DNA of 64,000 nucleotides. Source: Nitrospirota bacterium. GTDB taxonomy: Bacteria > Nitrospirota > Thermodesulfovibrionia > Thermodesulfovibrionales > Dissulfurispiraceae. How positions within the stretch are numbered: the first letter of the stretch is position 1; each line of letters begins with the position of its first letter. The notes beneath the pieces are model-generated. The model saw only the letters and a list, made by a program, of their open reading frames with translations. It was not told where the DNA came from and ran no database searches. Positions 13,870 through 24,021 of the stretch are shown one piece after another. Location of the stretch: assembly GCA_016936655.1 (NCBI GenBank), contig JAFGXL010000016.1, forward strand, positions 1-64,000, written 5' to 3'. Position numbers and translations under genes: made by a program.

Positions 13870-13948
13870 TTAGTAATACCAGACACTAAAGGTATTTAGC
13901 AGCTGTTATTAATATTATTTGAGTTTTTTAGTGGAGCTGAGGATAAAA

Positions 13949-14689
13949 ATGCCTGAATACATAGCTGACCTTCATATTCATACATCAGCATCTCCTTGCG
14001 CGATGTCCGAGATGCTGCCGTCGGCTATTGTTGACAGGGCTGTTGAGCTGGGCATAGACATTGTGGCTATTTCTGATCATAACACAGCGGAAAATGTTGA
14101 TGAAGCATTTTTTGAGGGGCAGAAAGCTGGCATAACTGTGCTGCCGTCAATAGAGGTTACAACTACTGAGGAGGCTCATGTGCTGGCTATTTTTGAAACC
14201 CCTCAGAAAGCTCGAGCGCTCGAGACAATTATTCATATGAGGCACAAAAAAAGAGAGTCTTTAAGGACAGGCAGAGATAATTTCCTTAGTCTGCTTGAAT
14301 GCAATAACTCCTTTGATTCATTGAAGAAAAACACGTATGAGTATATGTGGTCAGGTCTCACGCTCAATGAAGTTATAGAAAAGACCCATGCAATAGGCGG
14401 CATAACAATACCAAGCCATATAGACAGGGATTTCATGAGTGTAATATCACAACTTGGAGAGGTGCCTTCTAATCTCTTCTTTGAGGCTCTTGAGATATCA
14501 TCAGCAACTCCTCAGGCTGTTGCCTTGCGCAGATATGCTGCTTATAAATCCATCCCATGGGTTCGGTCATCAGATGCTCATCAGATTTATGATATAGGAA
14601 GACAGACCACAATATTCAGGATAAATGCCCCCAGCTTTCAAGAGATAGCAATAGCTTTAAGAGAAAGGCGTATGGATCTTATTTCATAG
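13949..14689 (+). CDS. PHP-domain metal-dependent phosphoesterase
   Basis: A 246-residue protein with the metal-binding motifs of the polymerase-and-histidinol-phosphatase fold: DLHIHTSASP near residue 6, VAISDHNTAENV, a Glu in SIEVTTTEEAHVL, SHIDRD, and the final SSDAHQIYDIG. These would bind a trinuclear metal centre that hydrolyses phosphoesters; the substrate is not known. The ATG at 13949 follows a GTGGAGCTGAGG ribosome site; an upstream TTG is less likely. It is 7 bases before the ATPase gene. PHP, HATPase and NuoE/NuoF genes are often found together in gene clusters for soluble hydrogenases in anaerobes, which links it to the redox genes at 17.4-24 kb. Confidence 0.85.
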   Translation: MPEYIADLHIHTSASPCAMSEMLPSAIVDRAVELGIDIVAISDHNTAENVDEAFFEGQKAGITVLPSIEVTTTEEAHVLAIFETPQKARALETIIHMRHKKRESLRTGRDNFLSLLECNNSFDSLKKNTYEYMWSGLTLNEVIEKTHAIGGITIPSHIDRDFMSVISQLGEVPSNLFFEALEISSATPQAVALRRYAAYKSIPWVRSSDAHQIYDIGRQTTIFRINAPSFQEIAIALRERRMDLIS

Positions 14690-14696
14690 GCTTTTA

Positions 14697-15221
14697 ATGA
14701 AGGATATTTCTCTGCATATTCTGGACTTATCCATAAACTCCCTTAAGGCAGGAGCAACTGATGTATTTATCAGCATTCAGGAAAACACAGCTGATGATAT
14801 CTTCAAAATTGTTGTTAAGGACAACGGCAGAGGAATGAGCAGTGAAGATATAAAAGAGGCTAAGGCGCACTCTTGTGTAAAAAACAAAAGCAATTTCGGG
14901 ATAGGGATACCATTGCTCCTTAAGGCAGTTCAAGATGCAGAAGGCAGACTCGAAATATCTTCAGAAATATCTATAGGTACTACAGTTGAAGCGGTTATGA
15001 AGCTTGGCCATGCAGCTAGAAAGCCTCTTGGTGATATGGGCGCTACAATGGCTACCCTTATAGCCTGTTATCCTGATGTGAGATTTAGGCTTTCCTTCTT
15101 AAAAAACAATCAGTCTTTCAGCTTTAACAGTGACGAATTTAAAGCTGAAAAGACTTCATCGCAGAGTGATTTTAAGCATCTTAAGCAGTATATAAACGAG
15201 CTGGCAGGTTCTTTTGAATGA
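14697..15221 (+). CDS. Small GHKL/HATPase-fold ATP-binding protein
   Basis: A 174-residue protein consisting of one histidine-kinase-type ATPase domain and a short C-terminal tail. The N box is ILDLSINSLKAGA, the G1 box is VKDNGRGMSSED, and the G2 box is NFGIGIPLLLKA. There is no phosphorylatable-His domain and no sensor or membrane part, so it is not a usual sensor kinase. Anti-sigma-factor-like or ATP-gated accessory roles are possible. Stand-alone ATPases of this type are recurrent neighbours of NuoE/NuoF-like hydrogenase or dehydrogenase subunits. Its stop overlaps the next start (ATGA). Function is not established. Confidence 0.8.
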   Translation: MKDISLHILDLSINSLKAGATDVFISIQENTADDIFKIVVKDNGRGMSSEDIKEAKAHSCVKNKSNFGIGIPLLLKAVQDAEGRLEISSEISIGTTVEAVMKLGHAARKPLGDMGATMATLIACYPDVRFRLSFLKNNQSFSFNSDEFKAEKTSSQSDFKHLKQYINELAGSFE

Positions 15222-17441: not shown

Positions 17442-18293
17442 ATGGATACAAAAATTCTCGTAGTTGATAATGATAAATCACTGCTTCAGAACTGCAAATC
17501 TGTGCTTGAAACAGAGGGATATGCAGTTGACTACTGCATGAGCCATTCCGAAGCGGAGTCTCTGTTTAAAAACAATGATTATGTGTTGATGATGATTTAT
17601 ATGCCTGAGTGCTATGCTGAAACTGTACAGTTAATAAGATCAGCCAGAAGCGTAAGACCCGGGATGTTAATATCTGCTGTTTCTGACGCTCCTTCCCATG
17701 GATCACTAAAATCTGCTGTGGCTGCCGGAGCAAAAAATTATCTCAGGGCTCCTGTTGCGCAGCCCCAGATTATAGCTGAAGCAAAAAAGGCGGTTTCTAG
17801 AGCAGCAGAAGGCCACTCCTGCTGTTCGGATATAACACCAGAAATTCTTGCTGGGCTTGATGAGATAATCAAAAATAACAAATCAAGGCAGGGAGCTTTG
17901 ATACCTGTTCTTCAAGCGGCTCAGGAGCTTATAGGTTATCTTCCTGTAGATGTGCTTAAGCGTGTTGCTTCGGGGCTTGATATACCTGAGAGCGAGGTTC
18001 ATGGAGTAGTATCATTCTATTCAATTTTTACAATGAAGCCCAAAGGCAGACACAATATCAGGGTCTGCCTAGGTACTGCTTGTTATGTTAAGGGCTCTGA
18101 AGAGATAGTGAAAAAGATATCTGAAGAGCTTAAGCTTGATGTTGGAGGCATGACAGAGGATAAGAAGTTTTCCCTCGAGACTGTGAGGTGCCTGGGTGCA
18201 TGCGGACTCGCTCCTGTTCTTGTTGTGGGAAAAGAGACATTTGGTGATGTGCATGCAAAGGATGTTATGAATCTGCTTAAGCAATTCGAATAA
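17442..18293 (+). CDS. Pseudo-receiver domain fused to a NuoE/HndA-type [2Fe-2S] subunit
   Basis: A 283-residue fusion. Residues 1-120 read as a CheY-like receiver: TKILVVDNDKS keeps the acidic pocket, but the strand that should hold the phosphorylated Asp reads LMMIYMPE, with Met where Asp belongs in the D-x-x-M-P pattern, and the conserved Lys is Ala in YLRAPV. It therefore looks unable to be phosphorylated. Residues about 130-283 are a complete NuoE-like unit: helical ALIPVLQAAQELIGYLP, then VHGVVSFYSIF, and a thioredoxin-like [2Fe-2S] site with C-x4-C (CLGTAC) and C-x3-C (CLGAC). The NuoE unit passes electrons between NADH-linked flavin and other clusters. The ATG at 17442 has a TTGGAGGAATCG ribosome site. 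First gene of the operon leading into HndB- and NuoF-like genes. Confidence 0.85.
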   Translation: MDTKILVVDNDKSLLQNCKSVLETEGYAVDYCMSHSEAESLFKNNDYVLMMIYMPECYAETVQLIRSARSVRPGMLISAVSDAPSHGSLKSAVAAGAKNYLRAPVAQPQIIAEAKKAVSRAAEGHSCCSDITPEILAGLDEIIKNNKSRQGALIPVLQAAQELIGYLPVDVLKRVASGLDIPESEVHGVVSFYSIFTMKPKGRHNIRVCLGTACYVKGSEEIVKKISEELKLDVGGMTEDKKFSLETVRCLGACGLAPVLVVGKETFGDVHAKDVMNLLKQFE

Positions 18294-18323: not shown

Positions 18324-18719
18324 ATGCCAAAACTTGCTGCTGATGATCTTAAAAAAATAAAGGATTCATACAGATCTGTATTTACCATACGTGAAGGCGG
18401 ACAGCGTGTCACTATTACAGTGCACATGGGCACATCCGGTATAGCTGCCGGAGCCAGATCAGTTATGGAGGCGCTTCTTGATGAACTGCATAACAGCGGA
18501 GTCAGCGATGTTATAGCCAATGCTTCAGCCAGCTCTGGAGTGCCGGGCAAAGAGCCTATGGCAACTGTAGAGGTTGCTGGAGAGTCTCCTGTGACATACG
18601 GCGGGGTTGATGCGATCATCATAAAAAAGATATTTAGAGAGCATGTTTTAAATGGATCGCCTCTGCAGCAATTTATTGTTGCCAAAGAGAGCGAGCCGTC
18701 ATGCGAAGCGGAGAGCTGA
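18324..18719 (+). CDS. HndB-like (2Fe-2S ferredoxin-fold) subunit lacking its cluster cysteines
   Basis: A 131-residue protein. It opens with LAADDLKKIKDSYRS and ITVHMGTSGIAAGARSVMEALL, closely following HndB-type subunits of NADP-reducing hydrogenases, where the corresponding loop is usually GTCGIAAGAR. Here that Cys is Ser (codon TCC). The second cysteine loop, usually of the form GCxGxCxKEP, reads SASSGVPGKEP, with no Cys. The only Cys in the protein is in the tail (PSCEAES). The thioredoxin-like scaffold thus appears kept while the [2Fe-2S] site is gone, so a structural or docking role is likely. GGAGG precedes its ATG. It is followed 4 bases later by the NuoF-like gene. Confidence 0.8.
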   Translation: MPKLAADDLKKIKDSYRSVFTIREGGQRVTITVHMGTSGIAAGARSVMEALLDELHNSGVSDVIANASASSGVPGKEPMATVEVAGESPVTYGGVDAIIIKKIFREHVLNGSPLQQFIVAKESEPSCEAES

Positions 18720-18723
18720 GATA

Positions 18724-20601
18724 ATGAAGACCCACAGAATTAGTGTAATGTTATGCGGAGGCACTGGTTGTATAGCCAGCGGCAGTATGAAGCTGCGTGA
18801 CGCGATGGTTGAAGAGATTAAAAAAAGGGGGCTTCAGGATGAGGTGAATGTGGTACTTACAGGCTGCAACGGATTCTGCGCCCAAGGCCCTGTCATGACC
18901 ATATATCCTGAAGATATTTTTTACCAGAAAGTTACTGTTGATGATATACCGCTGATAGTTGAAGAGCATTTTATAAAAGGCAGGCCTGTAGAAAAGCTGT
19001 TTTATAAAGAGCCTGTTAAAAAGAAGGTTATCCCTCTTATGCGCGATATCCCTTTCTTCAGCTTGCAGGTGCTTCGCGCTCTTAGAAACAAGGGACTTAT
19101 AGATGCAGAAAAAATAGATGAGTATATAGCAAGGGACGGGTATCAGGCTGCTGCAAAGGCTATAACTCAGATGACTTCTGAACAGATAATAGATGAGATG
19201 AAGCGCTCAGGCCTGCGCGGCAGGGGCGGAGCTGGATTTCCTGCAGGACTTAAGTGGGAGCTATGCGCAAAAGTTGAAGGAGATCAGAAGTATATCCTCT
19301 GCAACGGAGATGAAGGCGATCCAGGCGCTTTTATGGACAGAAGCATAATGGAGGCGGATCCGCATGTTGTTCTTGAGGGCATGCTTATAGGTGCTAAGGC
19401 TATAGGAGCAAGTAAGGGCTATATATATGTAAGAGCAGAATATCCTCTTGCAGTTCAGAGGCTTAAAATAGCTATAGATCAGGCTAAGGAATACGGACTT
19501 CTTGGAGACAATATACTCGGCACTGACTTTAGCCTTGACATCGAAATATATCTGGGAGCAGGCGCTTTTGTCTGCGGAGAAGAGACAGCGCTCATGCGCT
19601 CAATTGAAGGAGAGCGCGGCATGCCCAGGCCAAGGCCTCCATTCCCTGCCCAAAAGGGGTTGTGGGATAAGCCCTCTGTGCTTAACAATGTAGAGACATA
19701 TGCAAACATCCCGATGATAATACTCAAAGGTGCAGACTGGTTCAGAAGCATGGGCACAGAAAAGTCTGCTGGTACAAAGGTGTTTGCACTCAGCGGCGCA
19801 ATAAATAACATAGGATTGATTGAAGTGCCTATGGGCATTCCGCTCAGGCAGATAATATATGACATAGGCGGCGGCATACCTAAGGGAAGAAAGTTTAAGG
19901 CTGTGCAGCTTGGCGGCCCCTCAGGAGGCTGTATGCCAGAGCCGCTGCTTGATACCCCGGTCACTTATGAAGATATTGTCCAGACAGGAGCCATAGTCGG
20001 ATCAGGCGGTATGGTTGTTATGGATAATTTTAACTGCATGGTTAATGTGGCTAAGTTCTTTCTCGAATTTACAGCAGATGAATCCTGCGGCAAATGTACG
20101 CCATGCAGGGTAGGCACTACAGTCATGCTCGACATCCTCACCAGAATTACTGAGGGTAAAGGACATGAAGGAGACATAGAACTGCTCCAGAGCATGTCGA
20201 AGGATATAATCGAGAGCTCGCTCTGCGGATTGGGGCAGACTGCGCCGAATCCGGTTCTGACCACGATCAAGTATTTCAGAGATGAATATGAATCTCACAT
20301 AAATGAAAAGTGGTGTAAAACAGGAGTATGCAGAGATCTATGCACATTTTATATAAACAAGGAAAAGTGCATAGGCTGCGGAGCCTGCGCGCGTGCATGC
20401 CCCAAAAAGGCGATATCAGGAGAGAAGAAGAAACCGCACGAAATTGATCAGAATATGTGCATTCAATGCAGGGTCTGCTATGAAACATGCAAATTCGACT
20501 CTGTAATGATTGGACCAAGGAGCATGAGAGAGGAGCTTAAGAAGAAGGAGGAGAAGGAGCAGACAACTGACGCTGAACCCCAGAGTGTTGAGACTGCCTG
20601 A
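18724..20601 (+). CDS. NuoF/HndC/HydB-like NAD(P)H-binding flavoprotein with extra Fe-S domains
   Basis: A 625-residue subunit. Residues 1-100 form a thioredoxin-like [2Fe-2S] domain with CGGTGC and CNGFC. The NuoF core follows: FMN/NADH loops GRGGAGFPAGLKW, CNGDEGDPGAFMDRS and GAGAFVCGEETALM, then an SLBB region, and a [4Fe-4S] site with SCGKCTPCRVG and SLCGLGQ. The last 90 residues are a two-cluster ferredoxin: CIGCGACARACP and CIQCRVCYETC. This is the composition of the flavin subunit in HndC, electron-bifurcating HydB and related dehydrogenases. It oxidises or reduces NAD(P)H in the cytoplasm. I chose the ATG at 18724 (GGAGAGCTGAG upstream); longer readings overlap the HndB-like gene. The tail is Lys/Glu-rich. 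Confidence 0.92.
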   Translation: MKTHRISVMLCGGTGCIASGSMKLRDAMVEEIKKRGLQDEVNVVLTGCNGFCAQGPVMTIYPEDIFYQKVTVDDIPLIVEEHFIKGRPVEKLFYKEPVKKKVIPLMRDIPFFSLQVLRALRNKGLIDAEKIDEYIARDGYQAAAKAITQMTSEQIIDEMKRSGLRGRGGAGFPAGLKWELCAKVEGDQKYILCNGDEGDPGAFMDRSIMEADPHVVLEGMLIGAKAIGASKGYIYVRAEYPLAVQRLKIAIDQAKEYGLLGDNILGTDFSLDIEIYLGAGAFVCGEETALMRSIEGERGMPRPRPPFPAQKGLWDKPSVLNNVETYANIPMIILKGADWFRSMGTEKSAGTKVFALSGAINNIGLIEVPMGIPLRQIIYDIGGGIPKGRKFKAVQLGGPSGGCMPEPLLDTPVTYEDIVQTGAIVGSGGMVVMDNFNCMVNVAKFFLEFTADESCGKCTPCRVGTTVMLDILTRITEGKGHEGDIELLQSMSKDIIESSLCGLGQTAPNPVLTTIKYFRDEYESHINEKWCKTGVCRDLCTFYINKEKCIGCGACARACPKKAISGEKKKPHEIDQNMCIQCRVCYETCKFDSVMIGPRSMREELKKKEEKEQTTDAEPQSVETA

Positions 20602-20607
20602 TCTATA

Positions 20608-23145
20608 ATGAAAATGAAAGAAGAAAAGATTATAAATTTTATGATAAATGATATGCCTGTTAAAGCGAAGGAAGGCACTAGTGTACTCAGAGCCGCTCTG
20701 GACAATGGCATATACATTCCACATTTCTGCTATGACAAAAGACTCGAGGTTTATGGTGGATGCAGGCTGTGCCTTGTTGACATAAAAGGCGGGCGCAAAC
20801 TTGTTACATCATGCACAACAGCTGTGCAGGAAGGCATGGAAGTTTATACAGAGACACCAAAGGTTATATCCGCCAGAAAGACTGTGCTGGAGCTGCTGCT
20901 TGTTCATCATCCTTTAGACTGTCCTGTCTGTGACAAGGCTGGAGAGTGTCAGCTTCAGGATCTTGCTTTCAAATATGGAGCATCTGAAGGCAGATTCAGC
21001 GCCCAGAGAAAGAAAGACCCTGAGAGGCTAGATGCCCCTGTTGTACAGAGAAATACAAACAGATGCATACTCTGCGGCAAGTGCGTAAAGGTCTGTTATG
21101 AACATCAGGGCGTTGGCGCCATTGAGCTTATAGGCAGAGGATTTAAAACAAAAGTTAGCCCAGCGTTCGAAGAAACACTTAACTGCGAATTTTGCGGCCA
21201 GTGTATAGATGCATGTCCTGTAGGCGCTCTCAATAGCAGCTACTATAGGCATGTATCAAGAGCATGGTATCTAAAAGACCATGATATGCCTTGTCCTTAC
21301 TGCGGCTGCGGCTGTATAACCACTCTTAGTATGAGAGACGGCAAGATTGTGAGGGCAAAAGGAGTGGAAGGCAAAGGGCAGAATGATGGCAATCTTTGCA
21401 GCAGGGGCAGGTATGGTTTCGACTTTATCAGCTCACCTCAGAGGCTTACAAAACCGCTTATGAGAAAAGATAGCCTCTATTCAAACAATATAGTTTCATC
21501 TGAAGGGTCAACATGTAATGATAATCCTTTTATAGAAACATCATGGGACGAGGCTCTGGATTTTATAGCAAAAAAGATGTCTCAAATAGCATCAGAGCAC
21601 GGACATGAAAAGATTGGCGCAATAGGATCGCAGCGGTGCACAACAGAAGACAATTTTATGCTCCAGAAATTTATAAAAGAGAGTATTGGAAGCAGCAACG
21701 TAGATTCAGCTGCGCTTTTTGGATACGAAAAAGCCTCCAGATCGTTTGAATCGGTCTTCGGTCAGAGGCTGAGGCATATTTCTTGGGATGCTCCGCTGAG
21801 CGCAGATTTTATGCTTGTTGTAGAATCAGACATTACATCTTTGCTGCCTGTGTGGGGATTGAAGTTTCTTGAGTCAAAAAGAAAAGGCTCAAGGCTTGTG
21901 GTTGCAGATGCAAAAAAGACCAAACTTTCACGCCACAGCAGCAGCTGGCTCAGGATAACACCTGGTAGCGGTACAGCCCTGATAAACGGGATGATAAACG
22001 TCTTGATAAGAGAAGAGCTCTACAATAAATCTGCTGCTGAAGATGTGGCTGGTTTCATAGAACTTCGCAGCAGCCTTAAGGAATTTACTCCTGACGTCGC
22101 AGCAAAGGCTTCAGGTGTAACAGCTGATGAGATTGTAAATCTTGCAAGGGAGTATGCTTCTGCCAAAGAGAGAATTATTGCCATAACAGCTTGCGCTTCT
22201 GAAAATACAAAGAGCAGCTCCCTGTTTGTAGCTGCTGCCAATATGGCTATGCTTATGGGTGACGGTCCTGAGTCTCTGCAGGTGCCTGCTGAACATTCAA
22301 ATACTCTCAGCATGATTGCATCAGGAGTTCAGGCTGGAGTGAACGGGAAAAATGCATACGAGATGCTCTATCAATCAAATACGCTGAGAGCGCTTTATAT
22401 TGTCGGAGAAGATCCTCTTGTAATGATGCCTGACACAACAGCAGTAGAAAATAATCTTAAGTCTCTCGATTTTCTTGTTGTGCAGGATATATTTATGACT
22501 GATACAGCAAAAATGGCTGATGTTGTGCTGCCTGCTGCTGCATGGGCAGAAAAAGAGGGGCATTTTATTTCTGCAACAGGCAATGTGCAGAAGCTGGAAA
22601 AGATATGCAGCTCTCCCGGTGAGGCCAAGCCCGACTGGGAAGTCTTCTCAATGCTTATAAAAAAGATGGACAGCAGGGCTGGGCTTATGAGTTTTAGTGA
22701 TGTGAGCATGGAGGCTCAGTTAAAAGCATCTTCATTCATGGCGAGATTAGAAAGAAGCAAGGGACGTCCTGGATTTATTCCTGTTGAACTAACTATTGCT
22801 GAAGAGCCTGATTCACAGTATCCATTCAGGCTGGTTACATCAACAATACTTCAGCACTCAGGTTCGTTCTCCATGTTGTCAAAAAATCTGGATGCTATAG
22901 CATCCGAGCCGTATATCCAGATAAATTCTGCTGATGCATCAAGGTTGTCTATAAATCCAGACGCATTTATAGAGATCTCTTCAAGAAGAGGATCTGCTGT
23001 TGCAAAGGCTGTTGTTTCAGATGAAGTCCCAGAGGGCACATTGTTTGCGCCAGTGCACTTCTCATCTGCAAGGATAAATGCTTTGACATATGCAGCGGTT
23101 GACGGCAGAGTGCCGCTTGCAGCAGTAAAGATAACAAAGATATAG
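20608..23145 (+). CDS. NuoG/NAD-formate-dehydrogenase-alpha-like large subunit without the Mo-ligand residue
   Basis: An 845-residue iron-sulfur subunit. In order: a plant-type [2Fe-2S] domain (FCYDKRLEVYGGCRLC), the His/Cys cluster (HHPLDCPVCDKAGEC), two [4Fe-4S] sites (CILCGKCVKVC and CEFCGQCIDACP), a molybdopterin-type [4Fe-4S] site (CPYCGCGC, then GNLCSRGRYG), a large molybdopterin-oxidoreductase fold, and a C-terminal dinucleotide-binding domain (PFRLVTSTILQHSGSF). Formate dehydrogenases carry Cys or Sec followed by His after the NxDHCARL segment; here the region reads NVDSAALFGYEKAS, with neither, and there is no in-frame TGA. It therefore resembles NuoG in lacking a catalytic molybdenum site, although the FDH layout is kept. 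Likely the electron-accepting arm of the complex formed with the two preceding subunits. Confidence 0.87.
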   Translation: MKMKEEKIINFMINDMPVKAKEGTSVLRAALDNGIYIPHFCYDKRLEVYGGCRLCLVDIKGGRKLVTSCTTAVQEGMEVYTETPKVISARKTVLELLLVHHPLDCPVCDKAGECQLQDLAFKYGASEGRFSAQRKKDPERLDAPVVQRNTNRCILCGKCVKVCYEHQGVGAIELIGRGFKTKVSPAFEETLNCEFCGQCIDACPVGALNSSYYRHVSRAWYLKDHDMPCPYCGCGCITTLSMRDGKIVRAKGVEGKGQNDGNLCSRGRYGFDFISSPQRLTKPLMRKDSLYSNNIVSSEGSTCNDNPFIETSWDEALDFIAKKMSQIASEHGHEKIGAIGSQRCTTEDNFMLQKFIKESIGSSNVDSAALFGYEKASRSFESVFGQRLRHISWDAPLSADFMLVVESDITSLLPVWGLKFLESKRKGSRLVVADAKKTKLSRHSSSWLRITPGSGTALINGMINVLIREELYNKSAAEDVAGFIELRSSLKEFTPDVAAKASGVTADEIVNLAREYASAKERIIAITACASENTKSSSLFVAAANMAMLMGDGPESLQVPAEHSNTLSMIASGVQAGVNGKNAYEMLYQSNTLRALYIVGEDPLVMMPDTTAVENNLKSLDFLVVQDIFMTDTAKMADVVLPAAAWAEKEGHFISATGNVQKLEKICSSPGEAKPDWEVFSMLIKKMDSRAGLMSFSDVSMEAQLKASSFMARLERSKGRPGFIPVELTIAEEPDSQYPFRLVTSTILQHSGSFSMLSKNLDAIASEPYIQINSADASRLSINPDAFIEISSRRGSAVAKAVVSDEVPEGTLFAPVHFSSARINALTYAAVDGRVPLAAVKITKI

Positions 23146-23235: not shown

Positions 23236-24021
23236 ATGAACGGGTTTATAAAAAAAATGATAATGAAAAACAACGGGCATGCTGACTCCGGCAGCAGCGG
23301 ATGCGCTGTGCTTGCAGAGCAGGAAGATCTTATAGCCATTGAAAGAAGGCTGAAAGTATCTGTAAACGGAAAAGAGCTGCTAAGCCTTTATTGCACTCCT
23401 GTTATGGTCAGAGAGCTTGTTGTCGGCATGTTTATGACAGAGAATATTATCAATGGCGGCTGGTGTGCTGAGAGGATGACTATTGAGTATGGAGACGATG
23501 TGCTTGTTGATATTCCTGCAGAGGGAGAGGTTGTATCCGATGGAGCTGTCATAACATCAGGATGCATAGGCGGCATAACATTTCCAAAAAGACTCAAGCT
23601 CGAAAAGTGTGATGATCCATATAGAATATCTGCAGAAGATCTGAAAGTTCTCTTCAGAAAATTTCAGAATGCATCTGAGTTATACAAACAAACAGGCTGT
23701 GTGCATAGCGCCGGATTAAGTGACGGCAAGGATATTTTGTGTATAGCTGAAGATATAGGCAGGCATAATGCTGTAGACAAAATTATAGGTTACGCAATTT
23801 TGGAAAGTTTGCCTTTTGAGGGCAAGATAATGCTGGCCAGCGGAAGGCTTTCATCAGAAATCGTCTCAAAATGCGCCAAATGGAAAATTCCTATTGTGGC
23901 TAGCCGCACATCTCCTACCAGCCTTGCTGTAGAAATTGCTGAAAAAAATGGAGTAACTGTTGTGGGATTTATAAGGGCTGATAGGTTTAATGTATATTCA
24001 GCTCCAGAGAGGATTTGTTAG
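23236..24021 (+). CDS. fdhD: Formate dehydrogenase accessory sulfurtransferase FdhD
   Basis: A 261-residue protein of the FdhD family, which moves sulfur from a cysteine desulfurase onto the molybdenum cofactor of formate dehydrogenase. Seen motifs: PVMVRELVVGMFMTENII near residue 55, the active-site loop ITSGCIGGITF with one Cys (other members have C-x-x-C or a single Cys), TGCVHSAGL, IAEDIGRHNAVDKIIG, LASGRLSSEIVSKCA, and IPIVASRTSPTSLAVE. GAGGG precedes the ATG. It is 90 bases after the NuoG-like gene on the same strand. Its presence beside a subunit lacking the Mo ligand is odd. The coding end forms part of a perfect hairpin. Confidence 0.92.
   Translation: MNGFIKKMIMKNNGHADSGSSGCAVLAEQEDLIAIERRLKVSVNGKELLSLYCTPVMVRELVVGMFMTENIINGGWCAERMTIEYGDDVLVDIPAEGEVVSDGAVITSGCIGGITFPKRLKLEKCDDPYRISAEDLKVLFRKFQNASELYKQTGCVHSAGLSDGKDILCIAEDIGRHNAVDKIIGYAILESLPFEGKIMLASGRLSSEIVSKCAKWKIPIVASRTSPTSLAVEIAEKNGVTVVGFIRADRFNVYSAPERIC

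Follow-up and report, generated by a model that had tools for sequence, protein, structure and literature searches.

The response-regulator receiver that is fused to a NuoE/HydC [2Fe-2S] domain in the window (the whole 64,000-nucleotide stretch of Nitrospirota contig JAFGXL010000016.1 that was analysed) is probably a pseudo-receiver left over after phosphorylation control was dismantled, which has been kept as a structural part of the protein. The gene is a single open frame of 283 codons with zero internal stops (Table 1). Residues 5-113 match Response_reg (PF00072) with 37.2 bits (E 3.7e-9; Pfam cut-off, 30.2 bits), and residues 140-282 match 2Fe-2S_thioredx (PF01257, E 8.1e-49). The latter match, together with the presence of all four cluster cysteines, assigns the C-terminal half to the NuoE/HydC proteins. 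The nearest solved chains by sequence are HydC (8a6t_C, E 5e-40) for the NuoE half and the CheY-like protein 3crn (E 6e-10) for the receiver. AlphaFold2 returned a poor model from the single sequence (mean pLDDT of 41.6). Addition of a receiver alignment improved the receiver half, with the first 122 residues running from β1-α1 to β5-α5 at pLDDT values mostly of 82-95 (one block at 67), whereas the C-terminal part of NuoE remained below 50. The input alignment consisted of receivers from viral contigs, largely canonical, and thus biased this model towards a receiver fold; the Pfam match is independent of the alignment. Foldseek retrieved 3crn as the top match of the modelled receiver (rmsd 2.2 Å, TMt 0.85). 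Profile score above the cut-off and (βα)5 fold thus both place the domain in PF00072, as the preliminary description of this DNA, made from the sequence alone, had anticipated for the N-terminal ~120 residues; its NuoE-like domain with four intact cluster cysteines is likewise borne out by the PF01257 match and the alignment.

Table 1. Coordinates of the receiver-NuoE gene, its parts, and neighbouring features in the window
Feature	Position	Strand	Basis
PHP-domain protein, remnant of ancestral regulatory cluster	13919..14689	+	Pfam; synteny
GHKL HATPase, degraded ATP lid and N-box, cluster remnant	14697..15221	+	Pfam; alignment
Receiver-NuoE fusion	17442..18293	+	283 aa; ORF with ATG start, GGAGG just upstream
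Degenerate receiver (pseudo-receiver), residues 3-120	17448..17801	+	PF00072; 62-65 bits vs HMMs of orthologous receivers; AlphaFold2 model
Place of lost phospho-Asp, residues 51-53 (MIY)	17592..17600	+	Alignment vs 110 canonical relatives, TD(I/L)KMPE
Lost Lys, Ala103 (YLRAPV vs YLPKPF)	17748..17750	+	Alignment
Linker with genus-specific Cys127-Cys128 (GHSCCSDITPE)	17802..17852	+	Alignment; Cys pair also in congener (GHANECKCSDITPE)
NuoE/HydC [2Fe-2S] domain, four Cys kept	17853..18290	+	PF01257
HydD-like small protein, three conserved Cys lost	18324..18719	+	Alignment
NuoF/HydB (BfuB-like) subunit, N-terminal 2Fe-2S and C-terminal ferredoxin domains	18724..20601	+	PF01512, PF10589, PF01257, Fer4; inferred start, from alignment to relatives
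NuoG/FdhA-like molybdopterin-fold subunit without catalytic Cys/Sec	20608..23145	+	PF00384, PF13510; DSAALFGY site
FdhD	23236..24021	+	PF02634, E 6e-66

The window receiver has lost the residues on which phosphorylation depends. Anchoring of the alignment on MPE places Met51 at the position of the phospho-Asp, and an ungapped alignment places Tyr53 there; under either alignment, the β3-α3 region is shifted by 2 residues with respect to canonical relatives. The conserved Lys is Ala, the acidic pair reads D9-N10, and the Thr position is occupied by Ser81. A receiver that can be phosphorylated has the acidic pair, Asp, Thr/Ser, and Lys; here, Asp and Lys are absent and the second acid (DD2) is Asn. 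The Asp-to-Met and Lys-to-Ala changes noticed previously are thus real, the former with MPE as the anchor.

This state is the exception among a large set of related proteins. The homology search yielded the same fusion in 115 aligned sequences. A search of 60 relatives recovered it at full length in most families of the window's order. Across 396 scanned genomes of the phylum, at least 21 families carried it, every one belonging to the window's class; beyond this class, only the NuoE half was matched in the latter scan. When genome contigs were scanned with the single protein, the sole orthologue was that of a Nitrospiraceae MAG (L031). No full fusion was found in the viral contigs searched, and the plasmid search returned no record spanning 80% of the query. 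The four NuoE cysteines are kept in 115/115 fusions, and 110 of them have a complete receiver active site (acidic pair, Asp, Thr/Ser, and Lys); the receiver of one canonical relative (L034), for example, scores 102.9 bits in Pfam versus 37.2 for that of the window. Loss of both Asp and Lys is confined to 2/115 sequences, from the window genome and from its congener (G001, the one other genome of the genus examined), and the acidic pair is also damaged in the congener. Two genomes (L138 and L139) have lost Thr alone, and in a distant one (G197) Asn replaces Asp and Thr is missing. The G197 gene, an independent receiver-NuoE, lies in a stripped three-gene operon devoid of regulators (L148:6818-12085). 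Because 115 sequences carry the fusion and both genomes of the genus share its degeneration, a sequencing error or mis-join as the source of the fusion is ruled out. Judging from this distribution, the fusion is old and the degeneration is young.

Rates of change single out the genus in the same manner. Over all other branches of the tree the receiver/NuoE rate ratio is 1.10, so that outside the genus receiver and enzyme are under roughly equal constraint. This ratio rises to 3.0 and 3.5 on the two genus tips and to 7.2 on the genus stem, which is the longest receiver branch of the tree (2.45 substitutions/site in the receiver versus 0.34 in NuoE, on a fixed tree). Between the window genome and its congener, dN is 0.584 for the receiver and 0.142 for NuoE, a ratio of 4.1 compared with ∼1.2-2.2 in nine comparison pairs, and the two receivers are 42% identical overall. 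Nonetheless, the hydrophobic core is kept at 34/40 positions versus 19.3 expected, a value reached in 0/5000 shuffles, and omega, estimated with saturated dS, is below 1 (omega = 1 rejected, LR 20.3). By these measures, constraint on the genus receiver has been relaxed without being lifted. Both genus receivers match those of receiver-NuoE proteins best (66.6 and 62.8 bits; next class, 59.7 and 37.7), and their placement in the tree is weak. The matches support descent from a canonical receiver-NuoE receiver and do not favour the swap of the receiver for an unrelated one.

In canonical relatives (e.g., L034 and L044), the gene belongs to a cluster that begins with a HAMP-HisKA-HATPase kinase, DRTGG, an RsbW-like ATPase, DRTGG, PHP, HATPase, and CheY, and continues with an NtrC-type sigma54 activator, receiver-GcvH-like, receiver-NuoE, HydD-like, NuoF, and NuoG-like genes; FdhD or GAF genes are close to it in some of these relatives. 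The sensor kinase heading the cluster (L044:170-1771) has two motifs in its sensor region, CxxCH and CxxxCH, that may bind haem. The receiver-GcvH protein (L034:11226-11990), in which the fused domain is lipoyl-carrier-like, adjoins receiver-NuoE in many relatives and is a further example of a receiver whose output is a metabolic protein. Of the cluster regulators, the window keeps PHP and HATPase only, with YihY- and CysK-like genes lying between them and the operon. Its HATPase no longer has the DPFFTTK lid or the N-box Glu, and Pfam detects no HisKA-type phospho-acceptor domain in it; the lid is intact in the congener. The window genome yielded neither an RsbW-like protein nor a full-length receiver-GcvH (present in 28/60 genomes searched), and the best kinase and NtrC homologues reach just 41% and 46% versus 68% and 69% in another genome (G041), although, with the genome ∼97% complete, these absences may be misses. 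The congener retains an RsbW-like gene adjoining PHP and a truncated kinase of 255 aa that has HisKA and ATPase regions; at the syntenic place in the window, DUF1015 directly adjoins PHP, and neither gene is there.

Across the class, the receiver is canonical and adjoins a histidine kinase and other receivers, which makes ancestral control by the kinase probable. The ancestral receiver probably let the adjacent kinase tune the complex by Asp phosphorylation, and the receivers of the relatives would likewise be phosphorylated by the neighbouring kinase to control the enzyme. In the genus, partner regulators were lost and the receiver was deprived of its phosphorylation chemistry. What remains would be a folded pseudo-receiver that presumably no longer switches and persists as a cap with a structural function or as a module fixed in one state, with a NuoE domain that should still carry electrons. 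The G197 protein supports this reading as a second case, in which Asp is replaced by Asn and no regulators occur within its 15-kb stretch. Two observations weigh against it. First, partner loss and receiver decay are imperfectly linked: one genome (G015) is without receiver-GcvH and RsbW-like genes, yet its receiver is canonical, and the association of receiver-GcvH loss with receiver decay has a Fisher P of 0.057 that involves one genus only and ignores relatedness. Second, the selection on the genus receiver and the residues newly common to both species indicate that it is not simply rotting.

Many such residues, including those of the linker motif, have newly become common to both species, which could mean a new role for the receiver. 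CSDITPE is identical in the two species and the same region varies elsewhere; any linker Cys at all occurs in 2/113 sequences outside the genus. With core and frame kept and a genus-specific Cys pair in the linker, the pseudo-receiver may dock a partner or sense something other than phosphate. It is nevertheless unlikely that it has been re-purposed as a thiol/redox sensor, in which the Cys pair by the [2Fe-2S] domain would form a disulfide or metal site altering the oligomeric state or activity. Such a role would account for the near restriction of linker cysteines to the genus, the invariance of the motif, and the constraint on frame and core, and it has a precedent in the pseudo-receiver regulator RitR, whose linker Cys mediates redox dimerisation (PMC12632262). 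However, the spacing differs between the two species (CC in the window versus CKC in the congener, GHANECKCSDITPE), these are two related species only, and HydC of 8a6t also has a Cys run near its N terminus without any receiver, so that cysteines near the start of NuoE need not be sensory.

Retention of the pseudo-receiver as an interaction module, which would dock the complex, independently of phosphorylation, to a membrane complex or to the PHP or HATPase protein, appears improbable. The kept hydrophobic core and the persistence of PHP and HATPase genes in both genus genomes would fit this role, but the receiver as a whole is poorly conserved within the genus and the HATPase is itself fast evolving. 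The latter, suggested earlier as the docking partner, makes a poor candidate, being a member of the cluster in relatives that has here lost its ATP-lid motif and N-box Glu. The preliminary description stands as to the receiver fold, the lost Asp and Lys, the intact NuoE, and the reality of the fusion, but not as to HATPase docking or built-in allosteric control. With 110/115 fusions canonical, a regulated enzyme, if any, would ordinarily be phospho-regulated and the window protein is the exception, which leaves the pseudo-receiver as a designed allosteric device unsupported as stated. A composite scenario, in which a class-wide NADH-oxidoreductase (possibly electron-bifurcating) is under direct two-component phosphorylation via its built-in receiver and the genus converted this switch into a thiol/redox-sensing pseudo-receiver, is quite improbable. 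Plain decay, with the receiver as a passenger heading for deletion and no role left, would suit the elevated rate ratios on stem and tips and the parallel loss of key residues in the adjacent HydD and HATPase, but is highly improbable in view of the open frame, the retained core, and omega below 1.

NuoF and NuoG-like genes lie directly downstream, and the fusion protein probably provides the HydC/NuoE subunit of an iron-sulfur flavoprotein complex of the NuoEFG/BfuABC type that oxidises NADH. Besides its FMN/NADH domain, NuoF bears additional cluster domains at both ends, as BfuB does. Domains were compared with the BfuABC family through a Pfam-to-InterPro mapping. In that family, BfuB carries 51K, SLBB, NADH_4Fe-4S, and ferredoxin domains, BfuC is NuoE, and BfuA has 4Fe-4S and 2Fe-2S domains (PMC9304861). 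The operon encodes this set, with SLBB scoring under its cut-off (24.3 versus 27). The three cysteines conserved in the HydD-like protein are all missing in the window species only (TSGIAAG and SASSGVPGKEP); relatives, including the congener, keep them. FdhD adjoins the NuoG/FdhA-like gene in the window and in several relatives, despite the lack of a catalytic Cys/Sec in the latter. The formate dehydrogenase reading that FdhD prompts was rejected for this third subunit: neither Cys nor Sec, one of which marks the molybdopterin subunit of NAD-dependent formate dehydrogenases, occurs at the catalytic position, as assigned from the known SARxUH motif, in the window or any relative examined. The subunit is therefore NuoG-like.

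Receivers usually act on transcription or on other outputs of signalling. Conservation of one on the [2Fe-2S] subunit of an enzyme complex that oxidises NADH suggests that electron flow could be under the direct control of a kinase, which would allow redox balance to be tuned fast. The window domain resembles the bacterial pseudo-receivers and aspartate-less receivers (PsR/ALR; PMC12632262 and PMC4395418) in its PF00072 fold without Asp, DD2 acid, and Lys and in the kept Tyr at K-3, but its output is an electron-transfer NuoE domain, an output that the available parts of these two papers do not describe. With HydC/NuoE/BfuC of bifurcating hydrogenases and the BfuABC family (PMC9304861) it shares the thioredoxin-like [2Fe-2S] domain and an operon with NuoF/HydB and NuoG-like genes; it differs in having an N-terminal receiver and a third subunit that lacks the active site of a hydrogenase or of a formate dehydrogenase. 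Neither "receiver" nor "response regulator" occurs in the main text of that paper, and our search of freely accessible literature found no paper describing a receiver-NuoE fusion. The canonical fusions of the class are full-length orthologues of the window protein, but their receiver active site is intact, and a kinase and other receivers adjoin them in many cases. Pseudo-receivers make up ∼6% of bacterial receivers (PMC12632262). The window protein thus fits a known pattern, pseudo-receivers being common and their origin by loss expected, and the class-wide canonical fusion is the more surprising object. The findings suggest a widespread form of signal control over redox enzymes that has not been described before, and one lineage in which this control was given up. 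The genus thereby offers a natural loss-of-function comparison, i.e., the same enzyme with the switch removed. The stepwise origin of pseudo-receivers from working receivers is rarely seen, and the two sister genomes represent intermediate stages, the kinase being shortened in one and absent from that place in the other. The window's genome also encodes a second NuoE-NuoF pair without a receiver (L149:5295-7533), beside a gene that by eye resembles formate-tetrahydrofolate ligase.
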